NCBI GenBank assembly: GCA_030549795.1
Contig: JAUQQO010000020.1
Location: 1-64,000 of the forward strand
Source of the DNA: Pseudomonadota bacterium
Lineage (GTDB): Bacteria; Pseudomonadota; Alphaproteobacteria; Geminicoccales; Geminicoccaceae
Length of the DNA: 64,000 nt
Reading direction: 5' to 3'
Shown piece after piece: positions 1 to 8,915 of this stretch (position 1 is the stretch's first letter; each line of letters starts with the position of its first letter). Position numbers and translations under genes: made by a program. The notes under the pieces are model-generated. The model was given only the letters and a program-made list of their open reading frames with translations. It was not told the DNA's origin and did no database searches.

Positions 1-68
1 CCCACGGAGGGGGTGGACCCCTCGCTGGTTTTCAAGACCAGTCCGTTAAACCGCTCCGGCACCCCTCC
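1..68 (-). tRNA. tRNA-Ser(TGA), 3' end cut by window start
   Basis: Read on the minus strand, the 5' acceptor strand is GGAGGGG, followed by a D-arm with GCGGTTTAACGG, an anticodon arm CTGGT-CTTGAAA-ACCAG with anticodon TGA, and a long class II variable arm (GAGGGGT/ACCCCCTC). The sequence ends at the first half of the T-stem (GTGGG), so the T-loop, 3' acceptor strand and CCA lie outside the window. The long variable arm and TGA anticodon identify a serine tRNA reading UCA/UCG codons. Confidence 0.93.
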
Positions 69-222
69 CCGCAACCGGCGAGCTAGCCCCTCCGCACGAG
101 CGCGGTCAACCGCCCTCGTGCATCGCGGCGCCTTGCGCGCGCGCCCCACATCCCTGACATCGAAATGAGAAGTCGGGGCAGCACCACCAAGGGCCCCGAA
201 CACGACCAACGGGGAGGACACC

Positions 223-1122
223 ATGGCCGAGGGATATGCATGGACCTACCAGCTCGTCGGCGTTCGGGAAGGCGAGCTCGATCCGATTGCGGTGTTGCGT
301 CCCGAACTCGACCGCCTTGCCGAACGGTTGCGCGGCTTTGCCGAGGAGGCCGTCGCCCTCGAGGTGGAGCTCGAGAAAGACGGCGCGAGTGGCCGCTGGT
401 ACACCCGCCTCGGACTCGACCTGCCCGATGATGTGTTGCGCGCCGAAGGCGAAGCGCTCGACCCGGGCCCGGCCGCGCATCGCGCGTTCGCGCGCCTCGC
501 GCACCAGCTGGAGGCGGTCAAAGCCCGCATCCGTGCCGAGCCCGAGTGGAAGCAGCGCTGGCGGGGCCTTTCGGTCACCGGCGCACCTGAGAGCTTCGGT
601 GCCGGCGCGCAGCTCCGCGAAGCACAGCGCGATGCCGATCTCGAGCGCTTTTTCACCCGGGCGCGCGGTGAACTCGAGAGCTATGCGCGGCGCTGGTTCG
701 GCACGAGCGCAAGCGAGCGGCAGGCCGTGATCGCCCGCATCCTCGAGGAGGTGCGCGGCGAATTGCCGACGCGTTTCGCCGCCACACCCTTCACGGTCGG
801 CACGCGCGTGCTGCTCTACCGCATCCTGCGCGGTCGGCTACACGCGGCGGAACCGGAGCTGACACCCTTTGCCGGCATCCCGCCGCTCGATCCGCGCACC
901 GGCATCGAGCTCGGCGAACTCGATTGCGAAGAACGGGAAGTCTTCGAGCTCTATTTCCGCGAGGGCTTCTCGGAGAACGAGATCGCCTGGATCCTCGAAC
1001 GCGAGCCCGAGGCCGTGGGGCGGACCGTGCGGGGGCTCTTCGAGCGGTTGCGGGCTGCACTCGTTATGGGCCAAGCCGCCGAACAACCGCGTGCCGAGCG
1101 AGCGCACGCCCGCGCGGCGTAG
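223..1122 (+). CDS. HPF/RaiA-like domain fused to sigma-70-like regions
   Basis: A 299-residue protein of two recognisable parts. Residues about 22-105 follow the hibernation-promoting-factor pattern: an amphipathic helix (LRPELDRLAERLRGF), beta strands with alternating hydrophobics (VALEVELEKD, RWYTRLGLDLP), then a helix where family members carry AidxAxdkLexQLxkxK (here AHRAFARLAHQLEAVKARI). Residues about 138-207 resemble sigma-70 region 2 (FFTRARGELESYARRWFG, then VLLYRILRGRL), and 232-281 resemble region 4 (LDCEEREVFELYF, then the helix-turn-helix FSENEIAWILEREPEAVGRTVR). The ATG start follows GGGGAGGACACC. The gene stands alone, with a terminator after it. A role linking ribosome hibernation to transcription or ribosome binding is inference. 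The sigma-like part may be degenerate, since no clear promoter-melting motif is seen. Confidence 0.75.
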   Translation: MAEGYAWTYQLVGVREGELDPIAVLRPELDRLAERLRGFAEEAVALEVELEKDGASGRWYTRLGLDLPDDVLRAEGEALDPGPAAHRAFARLAHQLEAVKARIRAEPEWKQRWRGLSVTGAPESFGAGAQLREAQRDADLERFFTRARGELESYARRWFGTSASERQAVIARILEEVRGELPTRFAATPFTVGTRVLLYRILRGRLHAAEPELTPFAGIPPLDPRTGIELGELDCEEREVFELYFREGFSENEIAWILEREPEAVGRTVRGLFERLRAALVMGQAAEQPRAERAHARAA

Positions 1123-1147
1123 ACCAAAAGGTGCAGTGTGCGATCGG

Positions 1148-1177
1148 GCGAGCGGGCCAGCTGGCCCGCTCGCTTTC
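1148..1177 (+). terminator. Intrinsic terminator after the HPF/sigma-like gene
   Basis: A perfect 13-base-pair inverted repeat GCGAGCGGGCCAG/CTGGCCCGCTCGC at 1148-1173 is followed by TTTCT. It lies 25 bases after the stop codon of the gene at 223-1122. Confidence 0.75.
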
Positions 1178-5055: not shown

Positions 5056-5580
5056 CTAGCGCAAAGGCGCCATCACCATGACCATTTGTTTGCCTTCGAG
5101 CTTGGGCATCTGCTCGACTTTGGCGCGGTCGGCGACGTCGTTCTTGATGCGCTCGAACAGACTCGTGGCGAGATGGGTATGCACCATCTCGCGGCCCCGG
5201 AAGCGCAGCGTTACCTTAACCTTGTCGCCTTCTTCCAAGAACTCGCGAATCTTGCGCATTTTGATTTCGTAGTCGTTTTCGTCGATGGTCGGCCGCATTT
5301 TGATTTCTTTAACTTCGATGATCTTTTGTTTCTTGCGGGCGGCCGCCGCCTTTTTCTGTGCCTCGTATTTGAACTTGCCGTAATCGAGGATCTTGCAGAC
5401 CGGAGGACGGGCGGTGGGGGCGATCTCGACCAAATCCAAACCGGCCTCTTCGGCTCTCGCGAGGGCTTCCCGCAACGGGACGATCCCCACCATGTTGCCG
5501 TTTTCGTCGATCAACCGCACCTCCGGCGCGTCGATCATCCGGTTGACGCGGTACTCCTCCTCGCGGGTCGATGTCGCCAT
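5056..5580 (-). CDS. infC: Translation initiation factor IF-3
   Basis: A 174-residue protein of normal IF-3 length. The N-terminal domain shows [18 protein letters not shown] and the linker region [12 protein letters not shown]; the C-terminal domain shows [17 protein letters not shown] and [15 protein letters not shown]-3 binds the 30S subunit, blocks subunit joining and checks the start codon. The start is an ATG, with AGGAGGAAGA about 9 bases upstream, unlike the rare AUU start that permits autoregulation in enterobacteria. The gene lies 94 bases after thrS on the same strand and is probably cotranscribed with it. Confidence 0.97.
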
Positions 5581-5674
5581 GAAGTCTGATCTTCCTCCTG
5601 TTCAGCCCAAACCGACTGGCGGCGCCGGTCGACGGCCGACGCCATCCCGCATATGTGCCCGCTTCGGCGCGCGC

Positions 5675-7642
5675 TCAACGGGCACGCGCGAGATCGGGCG
5701 GGGTTGATTCGCGAAGACACAGCGCAAGCGCCGCGTCAAGCGTGAGCACTTCCTGTTCGCGGCTGCCGAGCCGGCGCAGCGCCACCGTGCCCTCGGTTTT
5801 TTCCCGCGCGCCCACCGCCAAGATGAAGGGCACTTTGGCCAAGCTGTGCTCGCGAACCTTATAGCTGATCTTATCGGGGCGCAGATCGAGTTCGGCGCGG
5901 ATGCCGGCAGCGCGCAGGCGCGCGAAGACGGTGCGCGCCCAATCGTCGGCTTCGTTGGTGATGGTGGCGACCACCACTTGCACCGGCGCCAGCCACACGG
6001 GCAGGCGGCCGGCATAGTGCTCGATCAGGATGCCGATAAAGCGCTCAAGCGAGCCCAAGATCGCCCGGTGCAGCATCACCGGACGATGCTTGGCGCCATC
6101 GGGGCCGATGTAGCTGGCATCCAACCGCTCGGGCAGGACGAAGTCGACCTGCAGCGTGCCGCACTGCCAGGCGCGTCCGATGGCATCTTCGAGCACGAAC
6201 TCGAGCTTGGGGCCGTAGAACGCGCCCTCGCCGGGATTGAGCTCGTATTCCACCCCAGCAGCCGCACAGGCTTCTTTGAGCGCCCGCTCGGCCTGGTCCC
6301 ACACGTCATCGGAGCCGGCGCGCACCGGCGGCCGATCGGCAAAGCGCACTTTAAACGAGGGAAAGCCGAAATCGGCGTACACCGAGCGCAACAGCTCGAC
6401 GAAGGCGACGCTCTCGCTCGTGATCTGCTCGGGCGTGCAGAAGATGTGGGCATCGTCTTGGGTAAAGGCGCGCACCCGCATGATGCCGTGCAACGCCCCG
6501 GACGGTTCGTTCCTGTGGCAGGAGCCGAACTCGGCCATGCGCAGCGGCAAATCGCGGTAGCTTTTGATACCCTGGTTGAAGATCTGCACATGGCAGGGGC
6601 AGTTCATGGGCTTGAGCGCGAAGGCGCGCTCTTCCGCTTCGAGCGTGAACATATGGTCGCGGAACTTGTCCCAGTGCCCGGAGCGCTCCCACAAGGAGCG
6701 GTCGACGAGCTGAGGGGTGCGCACTTCAACATAGCCGGCGGCGACGAGGCGGCGGCGCACATATTCTTCGACCTGCCGCCACAGCGTCCAGCCCTTGGGA
6801 TGCCAGAAGACCGAGCCCGGGGCCTCTTCTTGCACGTGGAAGAGGTCCATCTCGCGCCCCAAGCGGCGATGGTCGCGTTTTTCCGCCTCTTCGAGCTGGT
6901 GCAGATAGGCCTCGAGTTCGGCCTTGGTGGCAAAGGCGGTGCCGTAGATGCGCTGCAGCTGCGGCCGCTTGGGATCGCCGCGCCAATAGGCGCCGGCGAC
7001 TTTGAGCAATTTAAACGCGCCGATTTTGCCGGTCGAGGGACCGTGCGGGCCGCGGCAGAGGTCGAACCAGCCGTTTTGGTGGTAGAGGGTTATGGGCTCG
7101 CCCTCGGGGATCGAATCGAGGATCTCGAGCTTGAAGCGCTCGCCTAGGGCTTCAAAACGACGCCGCGCTTCCTCGCGGCTCACCTCCTCGCGCCGAAACG
7201 GCACATCAGCCGCAATGATCTCGGCCATGCGGGCCTCGATCTTGGCGAGATCCTCGCTCGAGAAGGGTTCTTCGCGATAAAAATCGTAATAAAAGCCGGT
7301 TTCGATCGGCGGGCCGATCGTTACCTGGGTTCCGGGAAAGAGTTCCTGCACCGCTTGCGCCATCACATGCGCGCAGTCATGGCGAATGAGCTCGCGCGCC
7401 TCCGGATCGCCGACGCGCAGGATGCGCACCTTAGCGTCCTTTTCGATCGGGCGATCGAGATCGCGGATCTCGCCGTCCACCACCACCGCCACCGCCTCGC
7501 GCGCGAGACCGGGGCCGAGGGCACGCGCGATCTCCGTGCCGGTCGGCGGGTGGTCGAAGGTCAACGTCGCACCGTCGGGCAGCGTGATCACCACCCGGCC
7601 CGGGCGCGCGGGAGGTTCGCAAAGCTCGACGGCGGTCTGCAT
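5675..7642 (-). CDS. thrS: Threonyl-tRNA synthetase
   Basis: A 655-residue class II synthetase charging tRNA-Thr. In order it has a TGS domain (about 15-80, [13 protein letters not shown]), the second additional editing domain with [11 protein letters not shown], a catalytic core with the zinc ligands Cys in [10 protein letters not shown] and His in [10 protein letters not shown], and a C-terminal anticodon-binding domain ([13 protein letters not shown]). Motif 2 is seen as [11 protein letters not shown]. The ATG at 7642 is chosen; a TTG 21 bases further upstream is in frame but has no better ribosome-binding site. It is upstream of infC on the same strand. Confidence 0.96.
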
Positions 7643-7742
7643 GAGCGATGAATCCGTTCTCAACGGGTCAGAGAAAAAGGCTCTTTTGTCCCCCTTGGGA
7701 GCCGAGCACTACCCGCAAGGTGGATCTTGGGGTGGCCGCCTG

Positions 7743-8915
7743 TCAACCGCGGACCGAAGTTCCGGCCGCAGCGTCCTGGACCATCTCGGCGTAGCTGTCG
7801 AGGAGCCGGCGGCCGACCCGCTCGAGGGCGAAGCTCTCGGCGATGAAGGCGCGGGCGCGAAGAGCGAGGCGGGCGCGCACCTCCTCGTTGAGCGCGAGCG
7901 CCCGCTCGATCGCCCAGGCGAGCTCGGATGCGTCGCCGGCTGCGACCACCCAGCCGGTCGAGGCAGGCTGCACGCATTCGGGCAGCGCACCGAGGTTGGA
8001 GACGATCACCGGCCGTCCCATGGCCTGAGCGGCGAGCACGGCGCGCGCCGACGGTAAGGGAGCTACCGCCGGCAAGACGACGAGTTCGGCAAATTGCAGG
8101 GCCGCCGGCTCGTCCTCCGGCGGCGCTGCGAAGCACACGCGTCCGCTCAACCCGCTGTCGCGGATCGCGTGCTCGAGCTCGCGAACATAAGCGCGATCGG
8201 CGTCCTCAGCAGCGATCAAGACAGCAGCAAGATCCTCGCGCGCGAGCTTGGCCAAGGCTTGGATGAGCACGCGATGCCCATAGGCCGGAACGAGGGGTCC
8301 GGGAACCAGCAGCACGCGGCGACCGAGATCGAGACCCCAGCGCGCGGCCACCGCCGCGACGCGCGCGCCGTTCACCCGCTCCGGCGACAGCTCGCTAAGA
8401 TCGATGGCAGGCGGCAGCACGCGGATGCGCGCAGACGGCACGCCGAACCGTTCGCTCAGCACTTCCGCCACATGTTCGGAGACCGCGAACAAGCGCGGAG
8501 CGGCGAGCAGCGCGCGGGCGGAAGCGTGGGCGAGCTCGTCGACATCGTGGACGGTAGCGAGCCACGGCAGGGCGAGCTTTTTGGCCGCGGCGCGGCCGAA
8601 GGATGCGGCCGTGGCACGCAGGACGTGGAGGATCTGCACCGCCTCGCTGCGGGTGAGGGCGGCAAGGGCGCGCATGCTGCGCAACCGCGCGAAAAAGCCG
8701 CTGCCATCGAGCGGCAGGGCGACGAGCCGGCCGCCGGCGCGGCGGATTTCGGCTGTAAGCGGCCCCTCGCGCGCCACAACAAGCGGCCGCCAGCCGTTGG
8801 TTTCGAGCATGCGGCAACACTCGAGCGTGCGCCGGCTCACGCTGTCGGGGGGAAGCCGGGCCGCCAACAGGAGCGCGGCGGGGCCGCGCGACCCGACCTC
8901 TTCGCCGTCTCTCAC
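7743..8915 (-). CDS. Family 4 glycosyltransferase (GT-B)
   Basis: A 390-residue protein with the two-domain GT-B pattern. The N-terminal acceptor half includes RRTLECCRMLETNGWRPLVV and TVHDVDELAH. The C-terminal donor half has VLLVPGPLVPAYG, AVLAAQAMGRPVIVSNLGAL and ECVQPASTGWVV, matching the E-x7-E region and the G-x-P-V-I nucleotide-sugar motif of GT4 enzymes. The sugar donor and acceptor cannot be told. The start is a GTG at 8915. The gene is divergent from the hydrolase at 9013 and lies 100 bases upstream of thrS on the same strand. Confidence 0.85.
   Translation of the reverse strand: MRDGEEVGSRGPAALLLAARLPPDSVSRRTLECCRMLETNGWRPLVVAREGPLTAEIRRAGGRLVALPLDGSGFFARLRSMRALAALTRSEAVQILHVLRATAASFGRAAAKKLALPWLATVHDVDELAHASARALLAAPRLFAVSEHVAEVLSERFGVPSARIRVLPPAIDLSELSPERVNGARVAAVAARWGLDLGRRVLLVPGPLVPAYGHRVLIQALAKLAREDLAAVLIAAEDADRAYVRELEHAIRDSGLSGRVCFAAPPEDEPAALQFAELVVLPAVAPLPSARAVLAAQAMGRPVIVSNLGALPECVQPASTGWVVAAGDASELAWAIERALALNEEVRARLALRARAFIAESFALERVGRRLLDSYAEMVQDAAAGTSVRG

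Follow-up and report, generated by a model that had tools for sequence, protein, structure and literature searches.

A divergent protein joining an HPF-like domain to a sigma-70-like domain, compared with an HPF–sigma family of stress-tolerance islands

Stressed bacteria reduce transcription and translation together. Among the closest described systems, the HPF/RaiA hibernation factors resemble the protein analysed here in the fold and element order of its N-terminal half but have no sigma-like part, in place of which long HPF carries a dimerisation domain. ECF sigma factors share its arrangement of region 2, whose stretch 2.2 binds the polymerase core, and region 4, whose part 4.2 holds the minus-35 recognition residues, but our protein has not kept the region 2.2 stretch, and its recognition-helix pattern departs from the ECF one. 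PhyR, which acts in the general stress response of alphaproteobacteria, has a comparably degenerate sigma-2/sigma-4 domain, but it carries a receiver and no HPF domain. HibA, as described in PMC13324472, likewise joins an HPF domain to a regulatory module, but that module is CBS rather than sigma, the HPF domain is C-terminal and the protein is from Archaea. The same paper also presents a survey of domains fused to HPF in bacteria, which may include an HPF–sigma fusion; we found no report of one in open-access PubMed Central. The nearest comparison is the orf11-type family of the tLST/LHR islands, annotated as hypothetical protein, sigma-70 family sigma factor, sigma-28 or FliA. The presence of an HPF–sigma family in mobile heat-tolerance islands appears to be largely unrecognised. 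The orf11-type members share with our protein a homologous HPF half (E 3.8e-11) and the same domain order, but are about 340–396 aa when full length, have an acidic QPD linker and lie mostly in stress islands, whereas our protein has 299 aa, no QPD linker, a gene that stands alone and a sigma lineage not clearly shared with them.

The window, which is the whole 64,000-nucleotide stretch of DNA analysed, starts at the first base of its contig, and only one side of the fusion gene is therefore visible. ORF translation, codon pattern and predicted structure place the gene at 223..1122 on the forward strand, with an ATG start preceded by a ribosome-binding-site-like GGGGAGGA (211..218, +; read from the sequence). 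The gene's own frame has a codon score of 0.34; its reverse complement scores 0.23, and the two remaining forward frames score −0.02 and −0.44. GC3 is 0.80 compared with 0.78–0.81 in four neighbouring genes. Because this composition is native, we claim no recent foreign origin. After the stop codon lies a strong hairpin with a 13-bp stem (1146..1175, +); the stretch 1123–1190 has a folding z of −3.9, and none of 200 shuffles was as stable. A preliminary description had credited the gene with its own terminator, for which this very stable hairpin is a possible candidate, but the T-run is weak and the hairpin does not appear in the consensus terminator scan. That description had also noted no partner anti-sigma gene nearby, and indeed a scan of five window genes, reaching to 8915, found no anti-sigma domain, the other side lying beyond the contig end. 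At that end a cut-off tRNA-Ser (TGA) gene (1..69, −), divergent from the fusion gene, was recognised by 93% identity to a same-genus stretch in which ARAGORN made the call; ARAGORN gives none in the window itself. On the visible side, the fusion gene adjoins a gene for a short GGDEF protein (1868–2422, −; Pfam GGDEF 51.4 bits), whose signature looks degenerate by eye (GRWEKEEL).

The best reading of the fusion, judged from the sequence, appears to be a link between ribosome and transcription. In the form that we tentatively propose, to which we assign a little under an even chance, the protein would be a ribosome-tethered, two-headed stress regulator whose HPF half reads idle ribosomes and whose sigma half binds a transcription partner. 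On the strength of fold and homology, the N-terminal HPF-like domain would behave like HPF/RaiA and occupy the mRNA/tRNA channel when ribosomes are idle, and the C-terminal sigma-like domain would bind either an anti-sigma factor or core RNA polymerase. Such docking would then change the amount of free sigma-like domain, with a direction of effect that we infer, and the amount of unused ribosomes would set transcription of a stress programme.

The fold of the HPF half is firmly predicted. Residues about 5–108 (235..546, +) match the HPF/RaiA (S30AE) fold, which agrees with the hibernation-factor pattern earlier placed at about 22–105. Pfam S30AE by itself gave residues 34–104 at E 0.039 and 15.1 bits, below the cut-off of 23.7. 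In contrast to this sub-threshold match, hhalign against a profile of 17 relatives, built without the window protein, aligned residues 21–114 with probability 97, 34% identity and an E of 3.8e-11 for that single comparison, and the HPF part of the profile gave the window protein 59.7 bits, whereas none of 5000 shuffles exceeded 12.6. The protein was also modelled as one chain with an 18-row alignment in which the family served as guide (mean pLDDT 76.6, pTM 0.42). The top PDB matches in VIA-align were tied at Z 12.5, namely V. cholerae HPF (1.8 Å over 92 residues) and P. urativorans RaiA (2.2 Å over 98), and the predicted half has the fold and element order of HPF/RaiA. Structure prediction, proposed earlier as a check on both halves, thus recovered the HPF fold well but the sigma half less firmly; the two are separated by a low-confidence linker at residues 115–128 (565..606, +). 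In a tree of HPF domains, the window protein groups with alphaproteobacterial island members (fork 88/98), but its place is unsure because its branch length is 3.

The net charge of this half is unlike that of its relatives: it is −5, where 74 family members average +9 and span 5 to 16. Since it is less basic than theirs, ribosome binding by the window protein's HPF half is best treated as putative. The acidic charge would fit a plain stress sigma factor, in which the HPF-like domain has given up ribosome binding to act as a protein–protein or folding module, and several relatives are indeed named sigma factors in databases. The basic HPF half of the relatives speaks against that explanation, as does the finding, from the selection analysis given below, that the HPF half is the more constrained of the two, and we hold it to be quite improbable.

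The sigma half needs more careful wording. There is moderate support for reading residues about 126–286 as degenerate, sigma-70-like regions 2 and 4, in keeping with the sigma regions first placed at about 138–281. The structure model, alignment and hhalign delimit a region-2-like helical part at residues about 126–213 (598..861, +), and profiles, the structure model and hhalign a region-4-like helix-turn-helix at residues about 230–286 (910..1080, +). Single profiles gave E 8.7e-5 for NCBIfam TIGR02937 (22.2 bits, far under the cut-off of 42.9), E 0.0017 for Pfam Sigma70_r4_2 (below its curated cut-off) and E 3.6e-4 for the NCBIfam PhyR model (far under its cut-off). Because these three and S30AE all stay below their cut-offs, the window protein would be assigned to neither family on its own; profile searches, another of the earlier checks, thus missed the curated cut-offs in both halves, but profile comparisons placed both above shuffled controls. 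Aligned by hhalign with 26 ECF sigma factors, the sigma half gave probability 94.4, E 8.6e-8 and a score of 51.5 over 141 columns, against at most 22.4 for 60 shuffles, which supports homology across regions 2 and 4. The ECF set, used here and with hmmsearch, was drawn from loci found with alignment A2, which included the window protein, and its sequences were then chosen by a model that lacked it; the alignment from which sequence features were read took 26 of 36 ECF sequences, of 140–230 residues after trimming. With hmmsearch, 1 of 5000 shuffles equalled the whole protein's ECF score of 20.9 bits, and the relatives' sigma-half and region-4 models did not place it above shuffles. Structural matches to the PDB were middling at a Z of about 8 (1rp3, Z 8.1, rmsd 6.8 over 148). 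Taken by itself, the helix-turn-helix matches response-regulator ones equally well.

A different partner for this half is suggested by PhyR. Against 14 PhyR sequences, hhalign scored 50.3 (at most 20.5 for 60 shuffles), on a par with the ECF score, whereas the island family's sigma half gave 25.6 (at most 20.2 for 60 shuffles). The window protein and PhyR both have a short linker, an L-x-YAR stretch, an RVLLYRIL-like one and EGF-x-ENE-A, and the alignment shows that the window protein lacks the region 2.2 stretch (DLVDAT-like in relatives), the acidic QPD linker and a tryptophan kept by 17 sampled relatives. With region 2.2 and the tryptophan missing, and with the sigma half equally close to PhyR and ECF, this half may bind an anti-sigma factor or other partner instead of driving transcription; sigma activity of the window protein is doubtful, and an anti-sigma factor or a modified polymerase contact is the more likely target than a standard promoter. 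A strong rival for the window protein is a sigma mimic, whose C-terminal half would be a PhyR-type decoy that titrates an anti-sigma factor and whose HPF domain would replace the PhyR receiver as the input, so that idle ribosomes switch the anti-anti-sigma on or off. A PhyR-like protein (L045) also occurs among the class-genome matches. However, PhyR was above cut-off in none of the six genomes of the genus, compared with 11 of 40 genomes overall, and the window protein has no receiver (no match in Pfam or NCBIfam, the chain ending soon after the helix-turn-helix). We consider the mimic unlikely, though a serious contender. In view of the weak match to the family's sigma half, the missing QPD linker and DLVDAT-like stretch and the PhyR-like features, we place the protein outside the island family and would describe it as a divergent, solitary HPF plus sigma-like fusion.

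The ribosome-tethered regulator that we favour presupposes that HPF and sigma domains do occur in one protein, as the preliminary description had claimed for the 299-residue chain. That claim is confirmed, and the layout recurs in an Acidobacteriota bin (locus L178), where one chain of 340 residues scores 45.5 bits for S30AE (cut-off 23.7), 31.4 for Sigma70_r4_2 (cut-off 25.7) and 64.3 for TIGR02937 (cut-off 42.9). Because this chain exceeds the curated thresholds of S30AE as well as of sigma-70 region 4, the HPF plus sigma architecture is real. In a second member, L143, S30AE (25.4) and TIGR02937 (43.8) pass but Sigma70_r4_2 (20.2) does not. The L143 model (mean pLDDT 74.0, pTM 0.49) matched HPF structures at Z 14.0 in one half (1.5 Å over 92 residues) and, in the sigma half, Bartonella quintana RpoE bound to NepR at Z 15.2 (3.5 Å over 156). 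At E up to 0.01, 15 of 17 sampled members matched S30AE, 13 Sigma70_r4_2 and all 17 TIGR02937. Compared with PDB sequence profiles, the 17-member profile reached sigma factors at 3.2e-11 and its best HPF structure at 0.0099, and an HPF-only profile, in which the window protein and the HPF of its genome were also included, reached HPF structures at 7.4e-13.

These results bear on a further explanation, that the protein is purely a hibernation factor whose sigma-like half is a dimerisation or ribosome-docking module, comparable to the C-terminal domain of long HPF, with no role in transcription. Consistent with it, region 2.2 and, apparently, the recognition helix of the window protein lack ECF-like residues, and the region 4.2 recognition-helix pattern departs from the ECF consensus in the relatives too. 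Yet P0005 (TIGR02937 54.7), P0002, P0003, L178 and L143 pass a curated sigma cut-off, unlike E. coli P0007 and Burkholderia P0009, neither of which reaches the S30AE or TIGR02937 cut-off. Selection on the sigma half also argues against a pure hibernation factor. Among members of 370–395 aa, with pairs of dS outside 0.2–1.5 excluded and the remaining pairs not independent of one another, the 1477 pairs compared for the HPF half had a median pairwise dN/dS of 0.23, the 1921 for the sigma half one of 0.32, and the 1103 for the tail one of 0.55. Both halves of the family are thus under purifying selection, the HPF half being the more constrained, and we give a role confined to hibernation only a small chance.

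The wider family was reached in steps. As a direct query, the window protein found no confirmed relative in genome contigs or viral contigs; it matched 2 of 385 class genomes (residues 17–229, E 3.4e-8; residues 18–244, E 1.3e-6) and, by tblastn, plasmids at E 0.03 to 9, several within proteins annotated as sigma factors. The relatives reached from these class and plasmid matches are 371–393 aa long. In genome contigs, a profile of eight relatives gave 290 pattern matches, 124 of which were relatives; it also found one viral contig, and tblastn with P0005 found 108 plasmid records, 80 of which cover at least 80% of the query. With the profile of alignment A2 and a limit of E 0.001, matches came from 206 of the 385 class genomes; most of these were short region-4 matches resembling ordinary ECF sigmas and were set aside, only full-length matches being used. 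The family gene of one same-class genome is about 82–84% identical to genes of named alphaproteobacteria, which makes Alphaproteobacteria the most likely class of the host, though only weakly so because the island is mobile. A divergent HPF–sigma protein was seen in another genome (L233 6051–7304, −; G720; HPF part 19.4, sigma part 113.6 bits), ahead of a gene that resembles KefB by eye.

Gene context was taken from 78 loci, comprising 77 contig loci (from the best 80 of the 124 genome-contig relatives) and the viral one, by tblastn at E up to 1e-8 with no identity limit and flanks of up to 6 kb, several loci being shorter. Neighbours included NDUFS4-like (71 loci), ClpK-like (69), FtsH (65), sHsp20 (59), HdeD (55), rhomboid (47), KefB (41), SDH/ClpP-like protease (41), thioredoxin (40) and YfdX1 (15) genes. 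The larger family thus lies mostly beside ClpK, FtsH and HdeD in transmissible stress-tolerance islands. In 3 of 5 plasmid loci checked, the fusion gene overlaps hdeD by 4 bases. In E. coli, the gene flanked by hdeD-GI and trx-GI matched the family at 1.9e-11 in the HPF part (best of 3000 shuffles 0.1) and at 1e-35 in the sigma part (best shuffle 0.01), and a Klebsiella gene in the same hdeD/trx position matched P0005 over 89% at E 6e-16. Judged by these profile and sequence matches, the uncharacterised hdeD–trx gene of E. coli and Klebsiella, orf11 by position, belongs to the HPF–sigma family; that position follows the gene order in PMC8290217. In the gammaproteobacterial islands at L055, L056 and L057 (8001–9146), the hypothetical gene after hdeD-GI is a member, and in L055 and L056 it also precedes trx-GI. 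Burkholderia and Paraburkholderia members (L058 6001–7128, L059 6001–7152) are annotated as sigma-28 and lie near three Hsp20 genes, followed in L058 by GroES, GroEL and DnaK.

Genetic data exist for E. coli MG1655 lacZ::LHR, whose orf11 we equate by position with the family, the member compared being the E. coli plasmid gene in the same position. In that strain, the accessible part of PMC8407380 reports that 7 of 13 tLST genes were needed for heat or chlorine resistance, and orf11 is not among the resistance genes named there. Deletion of orf11 in this strain is reported to leave membrane-lipid oxidation unchanged. A broader form of the ribosome–transcription link would make the ribosome the anti-sigma factor family-wide, the E. 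coli and Klebsiella orf11-type proteins included, with the window protein as a separate lineage with a PhyR-like sigma half; through the HPF half, the sigma half would be captured by idle ribosomes or set free from them. We regard this generalisation as rather unlikely, but if it were true, unused ribosomes would directly report translational arrest to RNA polymerase.

At the L178 locus, in a Blastocatellia bin (5440–7969), FtsH is followed by the fusion gene and a baeRF_family10 gene, with sHsp20 nearby; Balon is related to this baeRF-type release-factor-like group. PMC10901736 reports that Balon genes most often adjoin raiA, with Hsp20, HdeD and alternative sigma-70 factors as other operon neighbours. 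The link between translational dormancy and transcription raised in the preliminary description is partly supported and stays a proposal. It gains from the occurrence of this layout in the relatives' heat and stress islands, and also at L178 with its FtsH, baeRF-type and sHsp20 neighbours; the window protein itself has the altered sigma half and the acidic HPF half described above.

The window gene also differs from the island family in its distribution. None of 12 island query proteins matched the window by tblastn, and the best ClpK-like proteins in the window's genome, 42–49% identical, are most likely ClpB and ClpA. In a survey of related genomes, proposed earlier as a check, no copy was found at E up to 0.001 in 30 other genomes of the taxonomic family, five of them of the same genus (1 of 31 being its own), but the same layout was present in the wider protein family. 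Relaxing the limit to E up to 10 gave weak matches only, of which the one with the highest identity (G020), a small protein that is HesB/IscA-like by eye, was rejected as a relative; a single phage, present in two phage records, was matched at E 4. Only 273 bases separate tRNA-Ser from the GGDEF gene in G023, and the wider gap in G021 holds no similar gene. Because the first gap is too small to fit the fusion gene and the second lacks one, the gene was either gained here or lost elsewhere, and gain beside a tRNA gene is possible.

Two further kinds of protein were seen in the genomes of the taxonomic family. Sigma-like proteins with a WFQP-x-D motif and no HPF part are encoded at L062, L063 and L065 (G010, G018 and G009), in each case followed by rhomboid and ClpP-like protease genes, with related matches in G017 and G006; because they have no HPF part, these sigma-only QPD-type proteins were set aside. 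One S30AE match per genome exceeds the cut-off in all six genomes of the genus (L214 and L215–L219), and that of the window's own genome (L214, G000:C31:45823–46128) is an HPF fused to a cold-shock domain.
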